Shown: positions 30,325-58,578 of the stretch, one piece after another
Layout: every line of letters begins with the position of its first letter
Position numbering within the stretch: the stretch's first letter is position 1
From: Coprinellus micaceus
Lineage: Eukaryota > Basidiomycota > Agaricomycetes > Agaricales > Psathyrellaceae
Assembly: GCA_951394405.1 (NCBI GenBank)
Contig: OX596345.1
Location: forward strand, 1,240,001 to 1,304,000
Direction: 5' to 3'
DNA: 64,000 nt
Notes under the pieces: generated by a model
The model's input: the letters and a program-made list of their open reading frames with translations, nothing else
Database searches by the model: none
What the model was told of the DNA's origin: nothing
Translations under genes and position numbers: made by a program

Positions 30325-32218
30325 TTAGAGGAGAGCCTCCCGACGCTTGATACCAATCGGGCATCCTAAAGGCTTGCGCAAAAACCCTTCCCGAGTGTCC
30401 AGCTGACAAGAATGTCAGGAAAAAAGGTTGTAGCCGAGTAGCGGGCAACTCACAATGAAATCGGGATCTTCTAGAACGATGTCATAGCGTCGCATGATTG
30501 AGGCAATAATGATCTGCAGCTCCAGCATGGCGAGATTGCGTCCAAGACACGCCCTGAAGATCCGAGACTCAATTAACGCTGCATTTTATGTGGGACCAAG
30601 AATGAACGGACCTTGGGCCAACCGAGAAAGGATTGAAGCACTTGTTCATCGCTGCCGAGTCGCCTTCGAACCATCGCTCGGGTCTATACTCCTCGACATC
30701 CTCGCCCCAGATCGAGGGGTCGCGGTGAATGGAATAGCTAGGGACACTGAGGACGGTGCCCTCAGGGAAGAACTGTCCGCGAATCGTCAAGCCGCCTTCA
30801 GGAGCGGTGCGGGGAAGCCCAAGAGCCGAGGTCGAATGGATCCTGAGTGCCTCATTGATGCATGCATCAAGGTAAGGAAGGTCCTTCATTTGGGGGCCGG
30901 TGGCAACGGTTTCGTCCTCCACGCCGAGGCGCTCGTCCAATTCGCGGTGCAGGCGCTCTTGCGCGTAACGGTTGCGTGCCAAGTAATACAAGATTGCGCA
31001 TGTCGAGCTAAGTGGTGTTCACGTTAGTTTTGTTTCGAAATGTGCAAAAATGGAGTACAAACTTGGAGGTCGTGTCGGAACCAGCAATAAGAAGGGTCAG
31101 GGCTTCCGCAGTCAGCTCTTCGCGTCCCATGGGGTTTCCATCACAATCGCGGCCAGCTTGAAGTTTGCTGAGAAGATCAACGCGATCCGTCGGGGTTGCG
31201 AGACGCTTCGCCACAGCCATGATGGCGATACCGGCCAATGATTGAACATCCTTCAGACCCTTCTTGTACCAAGGAAGATGGCGGACGAAGGGACGCCAGT
31301 GCGGAGGCAGAACTCCCATAGACATCGAATACTCGCCACGGCCATTCAGAATCTGCACTGCGGGAATAGAAAACACCTCGGATTCCTCAAACTCTTTTCC
31401 GTAGGATTCCATTGCCTTCGCGGGATCCTTGGGAACCAAAGCGGAATCCCGAGCAGCCTCAAGCATGCCAAAAGGCGCCCCAAAGGCAAGGTCCCCCACG
31501 ATGTCGAAGGCGAGGTAGTTCGCCCCTATGTCGGTACCACGTCAGTAACACCCTTCAGGTATCTTGAACCGGAGTACGTACAAGGCAGGCAGTCAAGCCA
31601 TAGTCGGCCTTCTTCACCACGCCAGCCTCCTTCACCTTCGGGGCCAGACATCCCCTTGATCGCCATGTCAGAGAGTCTATCCCACTGCTTGAGCAGCATG
31701 CCCACGTAGAGTCGAACCTGGGGCTCAAACTCGACTACACTTTTCTGAGAGAAGATGTGAGAGATGATTTTGCGTTTGCGGGTATGGTCGGTCCTATCTC
31801 GAGTGTTGAAGACCCCACGGCGGATCGACACGAAGGCGTCATAGAACTCTGACTTGAGAGCACCGTTTCCATGGGCGTAAACGATAGCGAGTGCGTCAGC
31901 GTCGGCGATGGATATGTGATTGGGAGCTATGCGGACGAAAGGCCCTACACTCGGTATCAGTAACCCGGTGGGGGACCAACGAGAACGCAACGTCATACCA
32001 TACTTCTGATGCTGTTTGTGCACTTCCTCTGAGCGGTGTCCATGCTTGGCGACCAAACCTAGCCATGCATCCGAGAACTTGGCGATGAAAGGGCCTGGAT
32101 ATTGGCGAATGCGGTGAGGGTCGACGAAGTAGGGTACAGCGTGTGCAAGAAAGATAGCGGCGGGGACGAGATACAGGGCAGTTGAGGGATGCCAGTAGCC
32201 TGAGAGTATGTCGAGCAT
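30325..32218 (-). CDS. cytochrome P450, CYP53 type (benzoate 4-monooxygenase-like)
   Basis: CYP53 enzymes hydroxylate benzoate and related aromatics at the para position, an entry to aromatic catabolism and detoxification. The start MLDILSGYWHP is followed by an ER-anchor helix (ALYLVPAAIFLAHAVPYFV). Family blocks then follow: YPGPFIAKFSDAWLG, PFVRIAPNHISIADADAL, SEFYDAFVSIRRGVFNTRD and HTRKRKIISHIFSQK. The I-helix is LTLLIAGSDTTS, the ExxR motif is EALR, the PERW motif is present, and the heme loop is FSVGPRACLG, split by an intron after PR. The last small exon gives LDTREGFLRKPLGCPIGIKRR, the CYP53 C-terminus. A TATA box lies 72 bases upstream. About seven introns; all key residues present. 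Exact substrate is inferred. Confidence 0.88.
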
Positions 32219-47125: not shown

Positions 47126-49909
47126 ATGAGCACCGCCGTCGCCGAACAACCAACGCTGGAGCGTAAGAAGACCGAAGGCTCCAGCGAGGCCATCGACGAG
47201 AAGCGACCCCTCGACGACGCCTCAGGCTCCTTCCACGACTCCGAGGAGGCTTTCGACGGTCACGACGTGTAAGTTCTAGGACCTGGTATCTGGAGCATTC
47301 CAGCTGACATTAACTCTAGTTCGGTCCCCTTCCCTGTCGACCCCGATGAGATTGAAGAGACTCATCAACTAACCTTCCGGTGAGCCACCCCACTCAGGCT
47401 TCTATCCTTCCTGACAAAAATCTGACGGAACATGTCAGCGCCCTGTTCGTTGGTTGCGTCCTGGGTGCCATCGTCGGTGCATCCAACATTTATCTGGGTC
47501 TCAAGACTGGATTCACTTTCGGTCCCCAGCTCTTTGGTGTATGTAGCTGTCACAATCTCGGAGGAATATGTCACTTACCAAAATTTCCTTCATTTGATTG
47601 TTGACAGGCCATCTTCGGTTTCGCTATCTTGAAGCCTCTTTCGAAGCTCATTCCTGAGTCTGGGATTCTCGGCAAGTTCTTTGGTGGTCATTTCGGACCC
47701 AAGGAGAACTGTACCGTCCAGACGTAAGTGTCTTGGGCTTCTTCTCCACGGACATTGTCTGATTGATCTTCTATTCTAGTGCTGCGACTGGTGAGGGCAT
47801 TGCTGATCCATACAGTTCTATTCCCGTACTAACTCCAATCTATAGCCGCTGGTGGTCTTGGTATCCTCTTCGTCAGCGCTGTACCCGCGATGTACCGTAT
47901 GCACTTGCTGTCGGAACTTCCCTCGCAAGATATCGGACGTCTCATTGGGTTGACTTTCTGCGCTGCTTTCTTCGGTGTCTTCTTCGTCATCCCCCTCCGT
48001 CGCTACTACATCGTCAGCCAAAAGCTCACCTTCCCGACTCCTGCTGCTACCGTGAGTTTTATTGGCACATGGCGCAGCACTTTACTCTACGCGGGACCCG
48101 TGTACTCATTTAACATTTTGCAAATAGGCCTACACCATCAGGCAGCTGCACCGTGGTCGTGCCGGAGCCGAGGCTGCTCGTAAGAAGGCTTTGGCTCTGA
48201 CCTACTCGTTCGTTGCCACTTTCTGCTACAAGGTCGCGACTGGCTATGCTCCTGGTATCGTACGTGACTCCATTTCCCATGACATAATTTCCCTTTCTCA
48301 CCCAGTGCTCCCAACCAGATCTACGACTGGCATATCGGCTGGACCCTTTACCGTCTCGGTTTCACTGGTGCCATCGCCCTTGAGAACTACGGCTGGGTTA
48401 TTGAATTCACCCCCGCTTTCTTCGGTGCTGGTATGCTTTCCGGTCTCAATGCCAGTTGGAGTTTTAGTATGTCCATTGCACTCTAAGCCATATTGCATCC
48501 ACTGACCATTTTTCCTCATCGCAGTGGGTGGTGCCCTCCTTGCTTGGGCCATCATTGCTCCCTCCGTGATCAAGACTGGCGTCGCCATCGACAACCACTA
48601 CTCCGAGGATTTCCCCGAGCTTGCTAGCAACGTCGGTATGGTCTTCGATAACCTCGAGCGATATGTCACCAGCCCATCCGCTCGTTACTGGTTGCTCTGG
48701 CCCGGGGTCTTCATCATGTTGGTGTACTCCTTCGCGGACATCATCATCTCCTTGATCCCCTCCTTCCGCGCTGTCACCTTCAAGAAGGAAGATTTCGACC
48801 CCCGTCAGTGGTTCAAACGTTCTGTCGGTGAGGACGATGAGGACCAGACCCCAATTGAGGACCGCGTCCCTCACACCTGGTGGATTACCGGATTGCTCCT
48901 CAGCACCGTCGCTTGCTGCGCTATCCTCGCCAAGCTCTTCCACATGAACGTCGGCACCGCTCTCCTCTCCCTCATCCTCGGTTTCATCTTCTCGTTCATT
49001 GCCGTGCAGTCTTCCGGCCACACCGACGTCAACCCCGTCTCTACCGTCGCCAAGGCCTCTCAGCTCGTCTTCGGTGGTGTGTCCAAGGGTGCAGGAATGG
49101 CTCAGCAGCCTGCCCAGCTGCTCAACTTGGCCGCTGGTGTCGTCGCTGCCGGCTCTGCGGCTCAGGCCTCCGATATGACTGGTGACTTGAAGACGGGTTA
49201 CCTCCTCCGTGCGAAGCCCAAGAACCAATTCATTGCCCAAGTCGTCGGTGCCGTCGTCGCCGTCTTCTTGTCTTGCGGCCTCTTCATCCTCTTCACCAAG
49301 GCTACTCCTTGCATCCTGTGAGTTTTACTCTGACCACCAGCATACTCTTTCAATATTTACTCATCTTTTCCTTATCCAGGTACCCCGATGAGGATGGTCC
49401 CCCGTGTACCTATGGTGCCCCCTCCGTCGCTGCATGGGCTGCTGTCGCTCTCGCCGTCACTGCCCCCAAGCTCCCCATCCCCAAGAGCTCTGGATACACC
49501 GCCATCGCCCTCGGCCTTGTCAGCGTCCTCACCGTCATCGTCAAGCACTACCTCATCCCCAAGAAGTACTGGCACTGGGTCCCCAACTGGGTGAGTAATG
49601 CATACCCCTATATCGCAAAACTAGCCATTTAACCCAGCGTTTTCCTTTGTACAGAACGCCGTCGGTCTCGCCTTCGTCGTGCCCCAGACCTACTACCCCA
49701 TCGCCATGGCTGCTGGCTCCACCTTCAACTACTTCTGGCTGAAGCGCAACCCCAAGGGCTACGACATGTACATGTTCGCCATCTCTGCTGGCCTGCTTGC
49801 CGGTGAGGGTCTCGGTGGTGTCTTCCAGGCCCTCCTCGCCATTGCCGGTGTCGATGGTGGAAAATACGGAACCGCTATCGGTTGCCCCGCCATGGAGTTC
49901 TGCGGTTAA
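47126..49909 (+). CDS. oligopeptide/metal-chelate transporter, OPT superfamily
   Basis: Proton-coupled importer of small peptides or metal-chelate conjugates in the plasma or vacuolar membrane. The N-terminal tail (MSTAVAEQPTLERKKTEG..) is cytosolic and acidic and ends with ETHQLTFR. Membrane segments then follow across about 11 exons: ALFVGCVLGAIVGASNIYLGLKTGFTFG (the conserved NxYxGLKTG signature), AIFGFAILKPL, GGLGILFVSAVPAMYRM, FCAAFFGVFFVIPLRRYYIV and ENYGWVIEFTPAFFGAGMLSG. Later come MGGALLAWAIIAP, AQVVGAVVAVFLSCGLFILF, VGLAFVVPQTYYPIAMAAGS and AGEGLGGVFQALLAI. It ends CPAMEFCG. About 740 residues, without breaks. Codon bias is strong, unlike the neighbouring gap. Substrate cannot be told from sequence. 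Confidence 0.93.
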
Positions 49910-51448: not shown

Positions 51449-53293
51449 GGTGTGTTTCTGGGCCTCACGGAGTGGTAGGGTGCTGGGGGTAGAGGTGAAA
51501 GAGGGAGTGTATAGGTGAGGTTGCGAGATTAGCTTTGGTGATAGGCTTCAGGTCACCGTGACCGGGAAGCCCGGAGAGATAGGTGCCCAGCAGCGGGAAA
51601 CTCAAGGTTGGAGACTGCGTATAGGATATCCAAGGTGAGAGTAGCTAATAAATAACGTCCCAAGGACGAGTTAAATAAGGAATCTAGACCGGAACCCCGG
51701 GTTGAAGTATGACAGTGGGCAAGGTATTGTCGATCGGGGTCCTGCTGTGGTCGCCGTACCTCCAGGTCGGTCGAAGGGCGTGCTGCGGGCTTCTGAAGCA
51801 AATCAGTACACAGAACCCAAGAACCCAGGAGAGCAAAAAGAGGAGAAGAGGTTTAGGCTAACACGTCGCCACGTCTTATACGAAGCCTCGGTGTCGCAGA
51901 CCATCCGAGTCATCAGTCCGAGGCCAAACCCCGTCGGACGCCCCCATAGGACCAAACGTAACGAAGAGGAGTAGGAATATGGAAGCTTAAACGTCGAATT
52001 TACACACCTGACCGACAGTATGTGCGGATGTATCTGGCTGTTGTGTTTCCGAGAGGGGTTTCGAGGTACGAGTTGGTAGCTGACCCTGTCGAACTGCAAG
52101 AAGTAGGAGCGTGTGCCCCAGAAACGAGCACGAAACTCAAAGGGCCGCTGGCTGTGGGCCGAACAGGGCTAGCTCTGCCGGGTCATGTCGTCTGCTAGAG
52201 TCACAGTATGAGAGTTCGGGCGCCTTGTTCGGGAGACGCCCGTCAGAGTCGCGCTGGCGGGGCTATTTATGGTTTTATAATCTAATCTAATCTTGTTTGC
52301 TTGTCTGCGGCATGTTGCTGTTTAGATCCAAGGCTTCTGCCCTTCCAACCCGGCAGATTTGCCATGACTCCTTGTTCCGTTCTTCCATGTTCTCCCTTTA
52401 TTTTCTGCGAGGCGACCTCTGAACACACGGGCACAACGGCTCAACTCACTGCTGCTGCTGGGATGAAGACCTGACCAGGGTTGTCGTACCTGCGCCACAA
52501 TAACCGATGAACTGAATACAACTATTCCCAGTCGTCCCAATCGGCCTTCACGGCTCTGCTGCGGAAGCTCTTCCTGCTGCTGGGTAATTCGTAAGCATCT
52601 TGGAGGACTGAATATGCCGGATCATGCGCATGATGAAGCAAGCGAATGTGGTGTCTTCTCACCGAACATATTTCCAGTCCGCTGGGCTAAAAGTGGGATT
52701 CGTACAAATCTCGAACGCGGCATTGAAGGCTTGGACAGGCTCGCACTCGCGTGCAGTGACTCCGATGCGCGTTTCCTAGCGTCACTCACCATCTTGTAGC
52801 CCTCTGTACTGCAAGCGACACAGTTTGTATCGAGGGCGGTTATTCATCGGGGCATAATATCTTTCCGAGGTTTATGATTGCCTTCTCATCCATGTGAACA
52901 CTCCCTCTTCCAATCCACACATTTTCTCCGGCTGGTTGGCTTTGCATTCATTTGCTCCTTCCCCGCATTGTTTACTTCATCTGTGAGTCTTCGATTCTTC
53001 CTTGTCCCAACTGCCGAGGGCTGATCTGTGACGTCGAATAGGATCCTTCTGCCCTGCCTCTGGGTCGGAGGCTCGGGATAGCCTTCTCTTTTACTTTTTC
53101 CGTGGTACAGGGTACAGGCCTGGATTAAATGCGGGACAACACAAGACACTATTGGCTAGGGGTTGAAGCTCCTCCCAGGAAACAGCTTCCGGTGGCACAT
53201 GTTCCCTGGCGTTCCCCCGCCAGTGCTTCTGCAGGAAACATACATAAGAGGGGGCAGAATGGTCTCTCGAATCTACCCCATCGATCACCAAAA
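51449..53293. other. 1.8-kb divergent intergenic region
   Basis: No supported gene. It must hold the promoters of the membrane-protein gene and of the LPMO gene; a weak TATA-like ACATACATAAG lies about 60 bases before the LPMO ATG. Confidence 0.45.
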
Positions 53294-54558
53294 ATGCGCT
53301 TCGCCCTCACCGTAACAGCAGTCGCCAGCCTCATCGCGTCGGCTTCCGCCCACGCCACCTTCCAGCAGCTCTGGATCAATGGCGTTGACGCCGGTGTTGC
53401 CTGCACAAGGAGGGTGCAAAGCAACTCCCCCGTGACCAGCGCTACGAGCAATCAGATCGCTTGCAACGCATACGACAACAACTCCAATGTTTGCCCCGTC
53501 AAGGCTGGCGATACCCTCAAGGTCGAGATGCACCAGCAGAACGGCGACAGGTCGTGCAAGAACGAGGCTATCGGTGGTCAGCACTACGGCCCCGTCACGG
53601 TCAGCCCAGGTTTCTCGACTCTCACGCTTCCCCGTGCTAACCAAGAAATCAGGTCTACATGGCCAAGGTCGACAACGCCGCTTCCGCCAACCCCAACTCG
53701 GCTGGCTGGTTCAAGGTCTCAGAGGGTGGCCTGATGTCCAACAACCCCGACTACTTTGCCGTCCAGGTTCTCAACGACAACTGTGGGCACTGGCAGTTCA
53801 AGATTCCTTCTGACATCCAGGCCGGTGACTACCTCATCCGTGCCGAAGTCATTGGTATGTTGAGCGCATTCGAACGTACAGCATTGATTTGAATGTTTCT
53901 CTCATAGCTCTCCACGCTGCTGGCGCCGGAGGAGGTGCGCAATTCTACCCTGGTTGCTACCAGGTTCGCGTCTCTGGTGGCGGAAGTGCAAGCCCACCCA
54001 CCGTCCGCTTCCCTGGTGCCTACAGCAACAGCGACCCCGGCATCGCTGTCAACATTCACCAGGATCTCACTACCTACAAGAGTACGTCGCCTCCACATTT
54101 TATTTTATTTTTCGCTTCCCTTTCAACAATCTAATCTCTTGTCTTCCTTACAGTCCCTGGGCCCGCTCCTTACGGCACCCCCGCTGCCACTGTCGCATCC
54201 ACCAAGTGGCCCACCACTGCTACCTGGAACACTGCTCAACAGCCTGTTGCCAACCCCACCACCTACGTCCCCGCCGATGGTGGATCCCCCCAACCTACCA
54301 CCGCTACCGTCCCCAACGTGCCCACCACCACCGCCGCCCCCCAACCCACTACGACCGTCGTCACTCAGCCCTCTGCCCCTGCTGGTGGCGCCGCCCTCTA
54401 CGGACAATGCGGTGGCTCAGGATACTCTGGCCCAACGACATGCGCTCAGGGCAGTTGCACTAAGCTCAACGGTGAGTGGACTCCTTCTCCGCGTTTCGAG
54501 AAACGTGGACCTGATCTGCGGGTTCCCAACAGACTGGTACTCTCAGTGCACACCTTGA
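53294..54558 (+). CDS. AA9 lytic polysaccharide monooxygenase with CBM1
   Basis: Secreted copper enzyme that oxidatively cleaves cellulose. Exons: 53294-53599, 53653-53854, 53908-54081, 54154-54471 and 54533-54558. The signal peptide ([19 protein letters not shown]) is followed directly by His20 ([13 protein letters not shown]), the N-terminal His of the copper histidine brace. The second His lies in [15 protein letters not shown]. The later motif is [27 protein letters not shown], then [15 protein letters not shown] with the axial Tyr. A Pro/Thr linker of about 60 residues leads to a CBM1 ([16 protein letters not shown] .. DWYSQCTP), whose last Cys and Trp are on the final 26-nt exon. All active-site residues are present. 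Confidence 0.95.
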
Positions 54559-55209: not shown

Positions 55210-56561
55210 ATGTCCACTGACATAAACGGAACCTCGCCGTCGAAGAGGGGTCAATTGACAATCGTCGGCTCGGGCATCGCATCCATCAGCCACCTTACTC
55301 TCCAAGCCGTCTCTGCGATCGAGAATGCAGATATCGTCTGCTATGTCGTCGCCGATGGCGCGACCGAGGCATTCATTCGCAAGAAGAATCCCAACTCTCT
55401 TGACCTCTATCACCTCTACGGGGAGGACAAGCAGAGGACGGATACTTACATTCAGATGGCCGAGGTCAGTCTCCCATGTCCGCTGGCTGCAAGGGAATGG
55501 TGCTGACATCTTCCACAATACCTCATAGTTCATGCTCATCCGCGTACGCCAAGGCCAGAATGTCGTCGGCGTCTTCTACGGGCACCCAGGTGTCTTCGTT
55601 TGCCCGACTCACCGCGCGCTTTATATCGCCCGCAGTGAGGGTTATAAAGCCAGGATGCTGCCCGGGTTGTCCGCAGAGGACTGCCTCTTCGCCGACCTCG
55701 GCATTGACCCGTCGAGCGTCGGTTGCGTTACTTACGAGGCAACCGACCTCCTAGTGTTCAAGAGGCCCATTAACCCTGCAAGTCACTTGGTCTTGTACCA
55801 GGTCGGTATCGTTGGGAAGTCCAACTTCAAATTCGACTATACCTCAGATGAGGTGAGCGATCCTCAGCTAAACGCAAAGCAGATTTGCTCACGCCTTGTC
55901 GCAGAACATCCACTTCACCAAGCTCCTCGACCGTCTCGAAGAGGCGTACGGCCCCGACCACGCCATCACGCACTACATCGCACCTCTCTTCCCTACCGAA
56001 GAGCCGATCGCGGAGGAGTACAGCATCGCCCAACTCCGTTTGCCTGAAATTCAGGACAAGATCCACACCATCTCCACTTTCTACGTCCCACCAAAGATGA
56101 GCGAGTTTCTCATTTACGACGAGGCTCTTCTTGCGAGCCTGGGCGTCACTCACAAGCCCTCCGTACCGTACCCTTGGAACCCAGAGGCTTTGCCCTACGG
56201 CCCGAGGGAGAAGAAAGCCATCGACCTCTTGGCTGAGCATGAGCCACCGAAGGGGTACAGGCCGCTGAAAGAACGTTCGGGTCTTCTCACCGTTTTGGAG
56301 AAGCTCTGCTTGGAACCCCTCGAGATGAAGAAGTATAACGAGGACCGTCAGGTGTACGCCGATGGTTTGAAAGGGTTAACCGAGGGTGAGAAGGAGGCAT
56401 TGGTTAGGGGAGACCACAGAACCCTCGCGGGCGCTTTGAAAGGTGTGTTTCTCCTCCTCGCTCAGGAACTACACTGACATATGGTCCACACATCAGTTGG
56501 AGACACGCCCACCAATCCGGCTGCGCTGGTGTTCACTTTCATTATCACGAGACTGGACTGA
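55210..56561 (+). CDS. borosin precursor: self-methylating alpha-N-methyltransferase fused to core peptide (OphMA-like)
   Basis: The enzyme uses SAM to methylate backbone amides of its own C-terminus, which is later released as a peptide. Exons: 55210-55464, 55529-55852, 55905-56442 and 56497-56561; 393 residues. The N-terminal tetrapyrrole-methylase-like domain opens [20 protein letters not shown]. It contains Y67, Y70, R76 and Y80, which align with OphMA Y63, Y66, R72 and Y76 as I recall that sequence. Then come [61 protein letters not shown] and a clasp region with [16 protein letters not shown] and STFYVPPK. Exon 4 adds 21 residues (373-393) ending [13 protein letters not shown], the predicted core. 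No prolyl oligopeptidase is nearby. Confidence 0.9.
56443..56496 (+). other. last intron of the borosin gene, readable through
   Basis: 54 nt, donor AAAG|GTGTGT, branch CACTGAC, acceptor CATCAG. If not removed, the frame stays open for 11 more codons and ends [11 protein letters not shown] at a stop at 56475-56477, giving a different hydrophobic C-terminus. Confidence 0.6.
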
Positions 56562-57135: not shown

Positions 57136-58578
57136 ATGGCAACCCGGAACGTGAATGCTAAGCCCGATGTTGAGAACATCCCAGCGGCTTCGGACGGCTC
57201 TTTCAAGCGCCCAGCGTCGACATTCCGTGGTGTCATCGAACGCGGAGGAAGGTTCGAGCCTGAGAAAGGTGCGTGGCCCTCCTATACTAGACTGCCAGCG
57301 CCTAATTCCGTTTTCCCCTTGTTATTGTAGATCGGTACCATCTATACGTCTCGTATGCATGCCGTGAGTGGCGTCCAAGTACCTGCAATGGCAGAACGAC
57401 TACTGACTTCGGTGACTTTAGCCTGGGCAACACGAGCTCTCATTGGGAGGAAACTGAAGGGCCTCGAAGATGTCATTTGTCGGTCACGTTCACTGCTGGC
57501 TTGTTCATTGGATCGGGATGCTCACAGCCGCTGACTCTAGCTGTTACCAAAGTGTCCCCTCACATGGACGAGGTCGGGTGGGCGTTCGCCTCCGTTCAGC
57601 CGTATCCAGGCGCCGAAGAGGATCCGCTTTATGGCTATGACCATGTAAAGGATCTCTACCTCAAGGCAGATCCCGACTACACTGGCAGGTCGGTGGTGGT
57701 GATGTGTCACCACACCCTCTCAATCCCGTACCTGACTGAAGGGCATTTATAGGTATACTGTCCCTATTCTGTGGGACAAAAAGACTGAGACGCTAGTGAA
57801 CAATGAGAGCTCCGAGATCCTTCGCATCCTGAACACGGGCTTCAACGAACTGCTTTCCGCGGATAAGGCGGCAGTCGACTTGTATCCTGAAGAGCTGCGA
57901 AGCGACATAGATTCTCTCAACGACCTGATTTACGCGGGGATAAACAGTGAGTACCATTCAGCAGCTCAAGGAACGATATGGCATGCTGGCTTGCTCACTC
58001 TCATTAGATGGTGTTTACAGGGCGGGTTTCGCAACTTCGCAAGACGCGTACGAAAAAGCCGTGCACGAGGTGTTCGATGCCCTTGATAAAGTCGAGGAGC
58101 TTTTGAAAGGAAAGGATTACCTTGTCGGTAGCCGCTTGACAGAAGCCGATGTCCGGCTTTTCGTGACAATCGTCAGTGCTTCAGTCCTATACTTCTCATG
58201 CCTTCATTTGACCAAAGTGAATTGTAGGTTCGCTTCGACCCAGTCTACCATGGACACTACAAATGCAACTTCCGCACCATTCGCGATGGGTACTCCGCTA
58301 TTGACCTGTACGAACTCTTATCTTTCATGGAAAATCCCCGTGAGCTGAGTAGAAAACTATCCAGGTGGTTGAGGAAGATGTACTGGAAGGTGGATGCATT
58401 CCAGTCGACCACCAATTTTGATCATATCAAAGAGTTCTACTACTGGTCGCAAATCAAGGTATTTACAACCTCAACACCTCATTATTGGATTCCACGTATG
58501 CTCACCGATGATACCCCTTAGATCAACCCTACAAGAGTGGTTCCCGTTGGTCCTGTGCCTCATATTCGGCCGTTGTGA
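57136..58578 (+). CDS. glutathionyl-hydroquinone reductase (Xi-class GST), copy 2
   Basis: Same enzyme family and exon plan as the gene at 35040-36459. The start MATRNVNAKPDVENI leads to GSFKRPASTFRGVIERGGRF. Small exons give [11 protein letters not shown] and PWATRALIGRKLKGLEDVI, again splitting the catalytic CPWA. Then [170 protein letters not shown]. It ends [18 protein letters not shown]. It is intact. The active Cys and the GHR-specific 'YLKADP' block are conserved. It lies 0.6 kb downstream of the borosin gene in the same direction. Confidence 0.92.

Follow-up and report, generated by a model that had tools for sequence, protein, structure and literature searches.

The analysed window, i.e. 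the whole stretch of 64,000 nucleotides, comprises bases 1240001-1304000 of contig C12 of the Coprinellus micaceus genome (50.3 Mb, 17 contigs) and contains at 55210-56561 (+) a spliced gene for a putative borosin precursor. With its three GT-AG introns (64, 52 and 54 nt) removed, the gene gives one open frame of 393 aa, from the ATG at 55210 to a stop codon that ends at 56561; the coordinates, the length of 393 residues and the C-terminal ending reported in a preliminary description of this DNA are thus correct (Table 1). The same description had named as neighbors a lytic polysaccharide monooxygenase (LPMO) and a glutathionyl-hydroquinone-reductase (GHR), and both were recovered, the former upstream as an AA9 LPMO by its match to PF03443 and the latter downstream as a GHR/omega-GST-like gene, the product of which is 86% identical to a glutathione S-transferase of C. 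micaceus. Beyond the window we found, besides a second OPT transporter gene, pieces of the Sec23/Sec24 family and a DUF6535 frame.

Table 1. Features of the borosin locus and its surroundings (positions in the window unless a contig is given)
Feature	Position	Strand	Basis and remarks
OPT transporter	about 47126-49909	+	Exon matches, ends by eye; about 5.3 kb upstream of the borosin gene
P450 exon match	30608-31018	-	E 1.8e-30; about 24 kb upstream of the borosin gene
AA9 lytic polysaccharide monooxygenase, CBM1-like end	53294..54558	+	PF03443, E 4.5e-11 within 53129-53731; gene ends and CBM1-like end by eye
Borosin gene, exon 1	55210..55464	+	Residues 1-85; start of methyltransferase domain; Y67, Y70, R76, Y80; ATG, open frame, GTCAGT donor; aligned to OphMA/dbOphMA
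Borosin gene, exon 2	55529..55852	+	Methyltransferase domain; Y102, S133, Q176 (equivalents of OphMA Y98, S129, Q172)
Borosin gene, exon 3	55905..56442	+	End of methyltransferase domain and clasp/borosin-binding domain up to K372
Borosin gene, intron 3	56443..56496	+	54 nt, GTGTGT...CATCAG; between clasp and core
Borosin gene, exon 4	56497..56561	+	C-terminal tail (21 residues), putative core, stop
GHR/omega-class GST-like gene, 8 exons	57136..58578	+	Exon model; stop one base past the last coordinate
Open frame, 435 aa	60371-61675	-	No Pfam match at E 0.01
Open frame, 301 aa	61697-62599	-	No Pfam match at E 0.01
Second OPT transporter	C12:1307780-1310471, beyond the window	-	Exon matches; about 11.2 kb downstream of the borosin gene

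The phmmer analysis confidently matched residues 7-372 of the protein, which cover the methyltransferase and clasp regions, to the solved structures of OphMA, the omphalotin precursor from Omphalotus olearius, and dbOphMA (DbiMA1) from Dendrothele bispora (E-values 1e-106 to 6e-111; identity 47-48%). The search against solved structures further reported the MroMA1 chains from Mycena rosella (E 6.5e-80) and the bacterial SonM (E about 5e-50, residues 14-274 only). Pfam identified the TP_methylase domain PF00590 (E 7.2e-20), and NCBIfam returned weak general methyltransferase matches alone, every one below its cut-off. The catalytic, SAM- and substrate-contact residues Y63, Y66, R72, Y76, Y98, S129 and Q172 of OphMA are all kept (7/7), as Y67, Y70, R76, Y80, Y102, S133 and Q176; this list was derived by a constant offset from the KchMA residues that a passage of PMC11395268 gives by comparison with OphMA, and the numbering is borne out for five of them by the titles of solved OphMA mutants, which name Y63, Y66, R72, Y76 and Y98. 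Between the enzyme and the core, the clasp or borosin-binding domain (BBD) is present and aligned through residue 372, and a profile built from eight clasp-plus-tail segments gave a strong match to OphMA and a weak one to SonA (E 2e-6 to 1e-5). A hydrophobic C-terminal segment follows, fused in frame, with a best 10-residue mean hydropathy of 2.48 in the tail encoded by exon 4. The match to OphMA/dbOphMA over residues 7-372, taken together with the seven retained residues, lends good support to the prediction that the gene encodes a fused, OphMA-like borosin-type precursor, and the OphMA-like methyltransferase, clasp and catalytic Tyr/Arg set claimed in the preliminary description are supported by the sequence. 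We regard it as highly probable, judging from sequence, that the protein is a self-methylating borosin precursor.

A tertiary model was built with AlphaFold (single chain) for the relative P0001 from Coprinopsis marcescibilis, using an alignment of 45 sequences including P0001 itself. The model has a mean pLDDT of 84.9, and its best structural matches are OphMA and dbOphMA (TM 0.79-0.82), then MroMA1 (0.76-0.80) and SonM. Five helices are found at residues 318-370, where the clasp/BBD is expected; the tail (residues 379-391) lies below pLDDT 50, with a tail helix at about 40.

The protein search yielded 2420 matches among 7994 scored candidates, and the closest of the 120 that were listed is P0001 (65% identity over 99%), which we take to be the protein called cmaMA. 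Its UniRef label starts with "Methyltransferase/ribosomally synthes", a beginning found also in the labels of the gymnopeptide precursor (P0014) and PocMA (P0064), and a genome paper on C. marcescibilis exists (PMC10182949). Identity between the two proteins amounts to 184/241 positions in the methyltransferase, 58/118 in the clasp and 10/20 in the tail. A quick tree was made from 58 rows (the C. micaceus protein and 57 hand-chosen matches of the 120 listed, with long bacterial fusions mostly omitted). It pairs the two proteins (SH-aLRT 98), followed by the metagenome protein P0003 (96), within a group of seven rows (95). This group lies outside the PocMA-type clade and also outside the OphMA/gymnopeptide clade, its junction with the latter having a support of 82. 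The gymnopeptide precursor GymMA1 (46% identity) is likewise a fused borosin precursor, but it belongs to the OphMA clade and has a tail of 44 residues. The PocMA-type clade and MroMA1 are fused fungal borosin precursors as well, but this clade is separate from the C. micaceus protein in the tree, and MroMA1, itself absent from the tree, is assigned to it solely by a strong match to P0056.

No second borosin copy was found in the genome in searches with the C. micaceus protein and with P0001; the TP_methylase matches on contigs C2 and C3 are not among the hits of the C. micaceus protein. Among the 120 listed of the 2420 borosin matches, many of them rows without an organism, none is named as C. 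micaceus, C. cinerea or Ephemerocybe, which hints that the presence of borosins among these mushrooms is patchy. Five of the matches (P0002-P0005 and P0011) are full-length borosin frames of fungal appearance, on contigs no longer than about 1.3-1.6 kb. Contigs of this size leave little room for introns, which suggests that they may be assembled transcripts and hence that the borosin family would be expressed in nature.

The tail encoded by exon 4 has no identical residue at the 21 positions aligned with OphMA (0/21), in agreement with the earlier statement that the C-terminus is unlike that of omphalotin. It had also been called a new core, and this is true with respect to the OphMA tail but not with respect to kind, since C. 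marcescibilis P0001 possesses a homologous tail in the same short-tail architecture; with 10/20 positions identical in its sister in the tree, the predicted core is not unique. The letters of the two tails nevertheless differ, NHAQLTFFFIISNL in one against those of the other. Ten matches were obtained in none of 200000 full shuffles, in none of 50000 when the best of five registers was taken, and in 4 of 200000 shuffles within halves, so that the similarity of the tails lends independent support to exon 4. If intron 3 were retained, another hydrophobic C-terminus would result, and alternative splicing could in principle alter the core. Retention as the main form was rejected, as the 11 residues gained in this way agree with the tail of C. 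marcescibilis at no more than 4 positions, compared with 10/20 for exon 4.

The tail comprises only 21 residues after the clasp, with Gly, Ala or Pro confined to positions 374, 377 and 380-382 and none beyond residue 382. Among 42 named fungal relatives in the alignment, which include some near-duplicates from a single species, the median tail length is 37, and 6 have tails of 25 residues or fewer. One of these six, P0018, with a tail of 7 residues, may be truncated. OphMA shows the same fused order of methyltransferase, clasp and core, but its tail of 41 residues includes a long linker, a Gly-containing core and a follower, whereas the C. micaceus protein has no evident follower. The split borosin SonM/SonA from Shewanella oneidensis differs in that enzyme and precursor are separate proteins, but it shares the methyltransferase fold, the LigA-like clasp/BBD and a similar spacing from the BBD to the core. 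According to the relevant passage of PMC8429565, a linker of 8 residues (54-61) precedes the core of SonA (62-71), which is methylated at L63 and I65; these two residues lie 12 and 14 positions beyond the end of the aligned clasp. Transfer of the register through the profile, which rests on a weak match and assumes native numbering of the 71-residue SonA chain with no intervening gap, places L63/I65 at residues 380/382 and the SonA core at residues 379-388, where the hydrophobic stretch begins; other SonA chains, if numbered from their own first residue, would shift the spacing by about 2. The spacing to the core therefore appears, from this alignment, roughly SonA-like rather than OphMA-like. 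Residue 380 is a proline and as such not open to N-methylation; the predicted onset of methylation is therefore at about A381 or A382.

Analysis of the genomic neighborhood did not reveal a biosynthetic cluster, either in the genome search for S9 peptidases, S9A N-domains, OPT transporters and P450s or in the Pfam scan of 20 of the 140 open frames of at least 120 aa in the window and 20 kb beyond, a sample that starts at 38 kb of the window and in which single enzymes could be missed. The preliminary description had proposed a natural-product locus from the position beside the LPMO and the GHR, a proposal that they do not support: both genes are of the lignocellulose/detoxification type, give no sign of such a cluster and were discarded as pathway genes. 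Omphalotin-type pathways have linked monooxygenase and O-acyltransferase genes; of the former kind, a single P450 exon match lies about 24 kb upstream of the borosin gene. It was not taken as a pathway gene, as 111 P450 exon matches were counted in the genome among the 92 scored of 304 candidates, and the presence of one in the vicinity says little. About 10 OPT genes in the genome resulted when 33 exon matches were grouped; the two that flank the borosin gene are suggestive but were noticed post hoc, and another pair about 25 kb apart exists on C11, so that the pairing is not special to this locus. The flanking OPT genes are possibly relevant to peptide traffic and possibly a matter of chance. 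The lack of a linked prolyl oligopeptidase (POP), pointed out earlier, proved right: none of the 12 PF00326 matches in the genome is on C12, and both PF02897 matches are on C4, where the sole S9A prolyl oligopeptidase gene found in the genome is located (C4:1385897-1388893). In this respect the locus differs from that of OphMA, which is clustered with OphP according to the part of PMC7878506 that deals with it.

A single copy by search and no cluster found would also suit a former borosin gene that has become inactive or is in decay after the loss of its cluster, but the intact frame, the regular introns, the 7/7 active-site residues and a tail conserved with a 65%-identical relative make this explanation very improbable. 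The gene encodes an intact new member of the known borosin family, not a new kind of system; its unusual points are the short tail, which is common to the C. marcescibilis protein, and the absent cyclization site.

By analogy with OphMA, the protein would form a mutually clasped pair in which the SAM-dependent methyltransferase domain of each copy would act on the C-terminal tail of the other, N-methylating its backbone amides from the N- toward the C-terminal side. The hydrophobic core (~A381-I389) would be held roughly where SonA holds its methylated residues, and with Pro380 excluded methylation would begin at A381 or A382. The product would then most likely be a linear N-methylated hydrophobic peptide, freed by a protease encoded elsewhere, for instance by a cut after Pro377, a residue common to the C. 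micaceus protein and P0001. Self-N-methylation from about residue 381-382 is what we expect by this analogy; the linear product is proposed with less confidence, and we give protease release of such a peptide, e.g. after Pro377, about an even chance.

The classical borosin pathway would follow self-methylation with excision and macrocyclization of the core, e.g. by the unlinked prolyl oligopeptidase on C4. The genome does contain this one S9A gene, with two open frames that match GmPOPB best, better than OphP, which one of them also matches, although it may be a housekeeping enzyme. A section of PMC12235650 describes OphP as largely independent of the follower and reports no activity on full-length OphMA, for which an initial cut by a host protease is assumed. 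Those fungal borosin products that the cited literature names (omphalotins, lentinulins, dendrothelins, gymnopeptides) are macrocycles, which favors cyclization and counts against the linear part of our proposal. At the C-terminal end of the core, however, no residue is found that would suit the P1 preference of OphP (MeGly > Pro > MeAla, given in the same section of PMC12235650). As Gly, Ala and Pro are missing after residue 382 and no obvious C-terminal P1 site is left, an OphP-style macrocyclization of the predicted core seems unlikely, and the linear peptide is favored on the same ground; we rate the classical pathway as a whole as quite improbable.

It is also conceivable that the methylated tail is never released and that the modified C-terminus is itself functional (anchoring, stability) or functionless. 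Neither a linked protease nor a tailoring cluster was found, and the very short tail is kept in the relative at a clasp-like identity (10/20 vs 58/118), both of which would fit such a protein. On the other hand, the fungal borosin products named in passages of PMC7878506 and PMC9233826 are released peptides, and the protease need not be linked, as the host protease thought to act first on OphMA (PMC12235650, in the section cited) illustrates. We consider a permanently retained tail improbable, and return to the self-methylating precursor from which a linear peptide may be cut. A broader reading, which we offer tentatively and hold to be rather doubtful, is that of a cluster-free one-gene borosin with a short linker, no evident follower and a core that is no OphP substrate, yielding either a linear N-methylated peptide or a permanently methylated tail; the C. 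micaceus protein, P0001, P0003 and perhaps a few others would then form a small subgroup with SonA-like spacing within the fused fungal family.

Borosins of types I-III were first found in fungi as fused proteins, as the introductory part of PMC11395268 states. A passage of PMC8429565 puts the tally by 2021 at more than 50 putative fungal borosin pathways with no known product, besides more than 10 validated precursors, while an excerpt of the review PMC11285071 speaks of over 50 borosins mined and 11 expressed. An "orphan borosin", as the locus was labeled in the preliminary description, is therefore a common situation. A borosin screen in four other fungi gave no matches, according to the portion of PMC9258550 concerned. 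Outside the survey by Quijano et al. 2019, our literature search returned no paper title on the C. micaceus gene, and the text matches to "cmaMA" fell in unrelated papers.

Peptides gain stability and membrane permeability from N-methylation of their backbone, and the number of mature borosin compounds known is small (PMC11395268). A minimal, short-tailed precursor would offer a compact tool to produce N-methylated peptides. The C. micaceus protein would also test whether macrocyclization is general among fungal borosins or belongs to the omphalotin-like branch.
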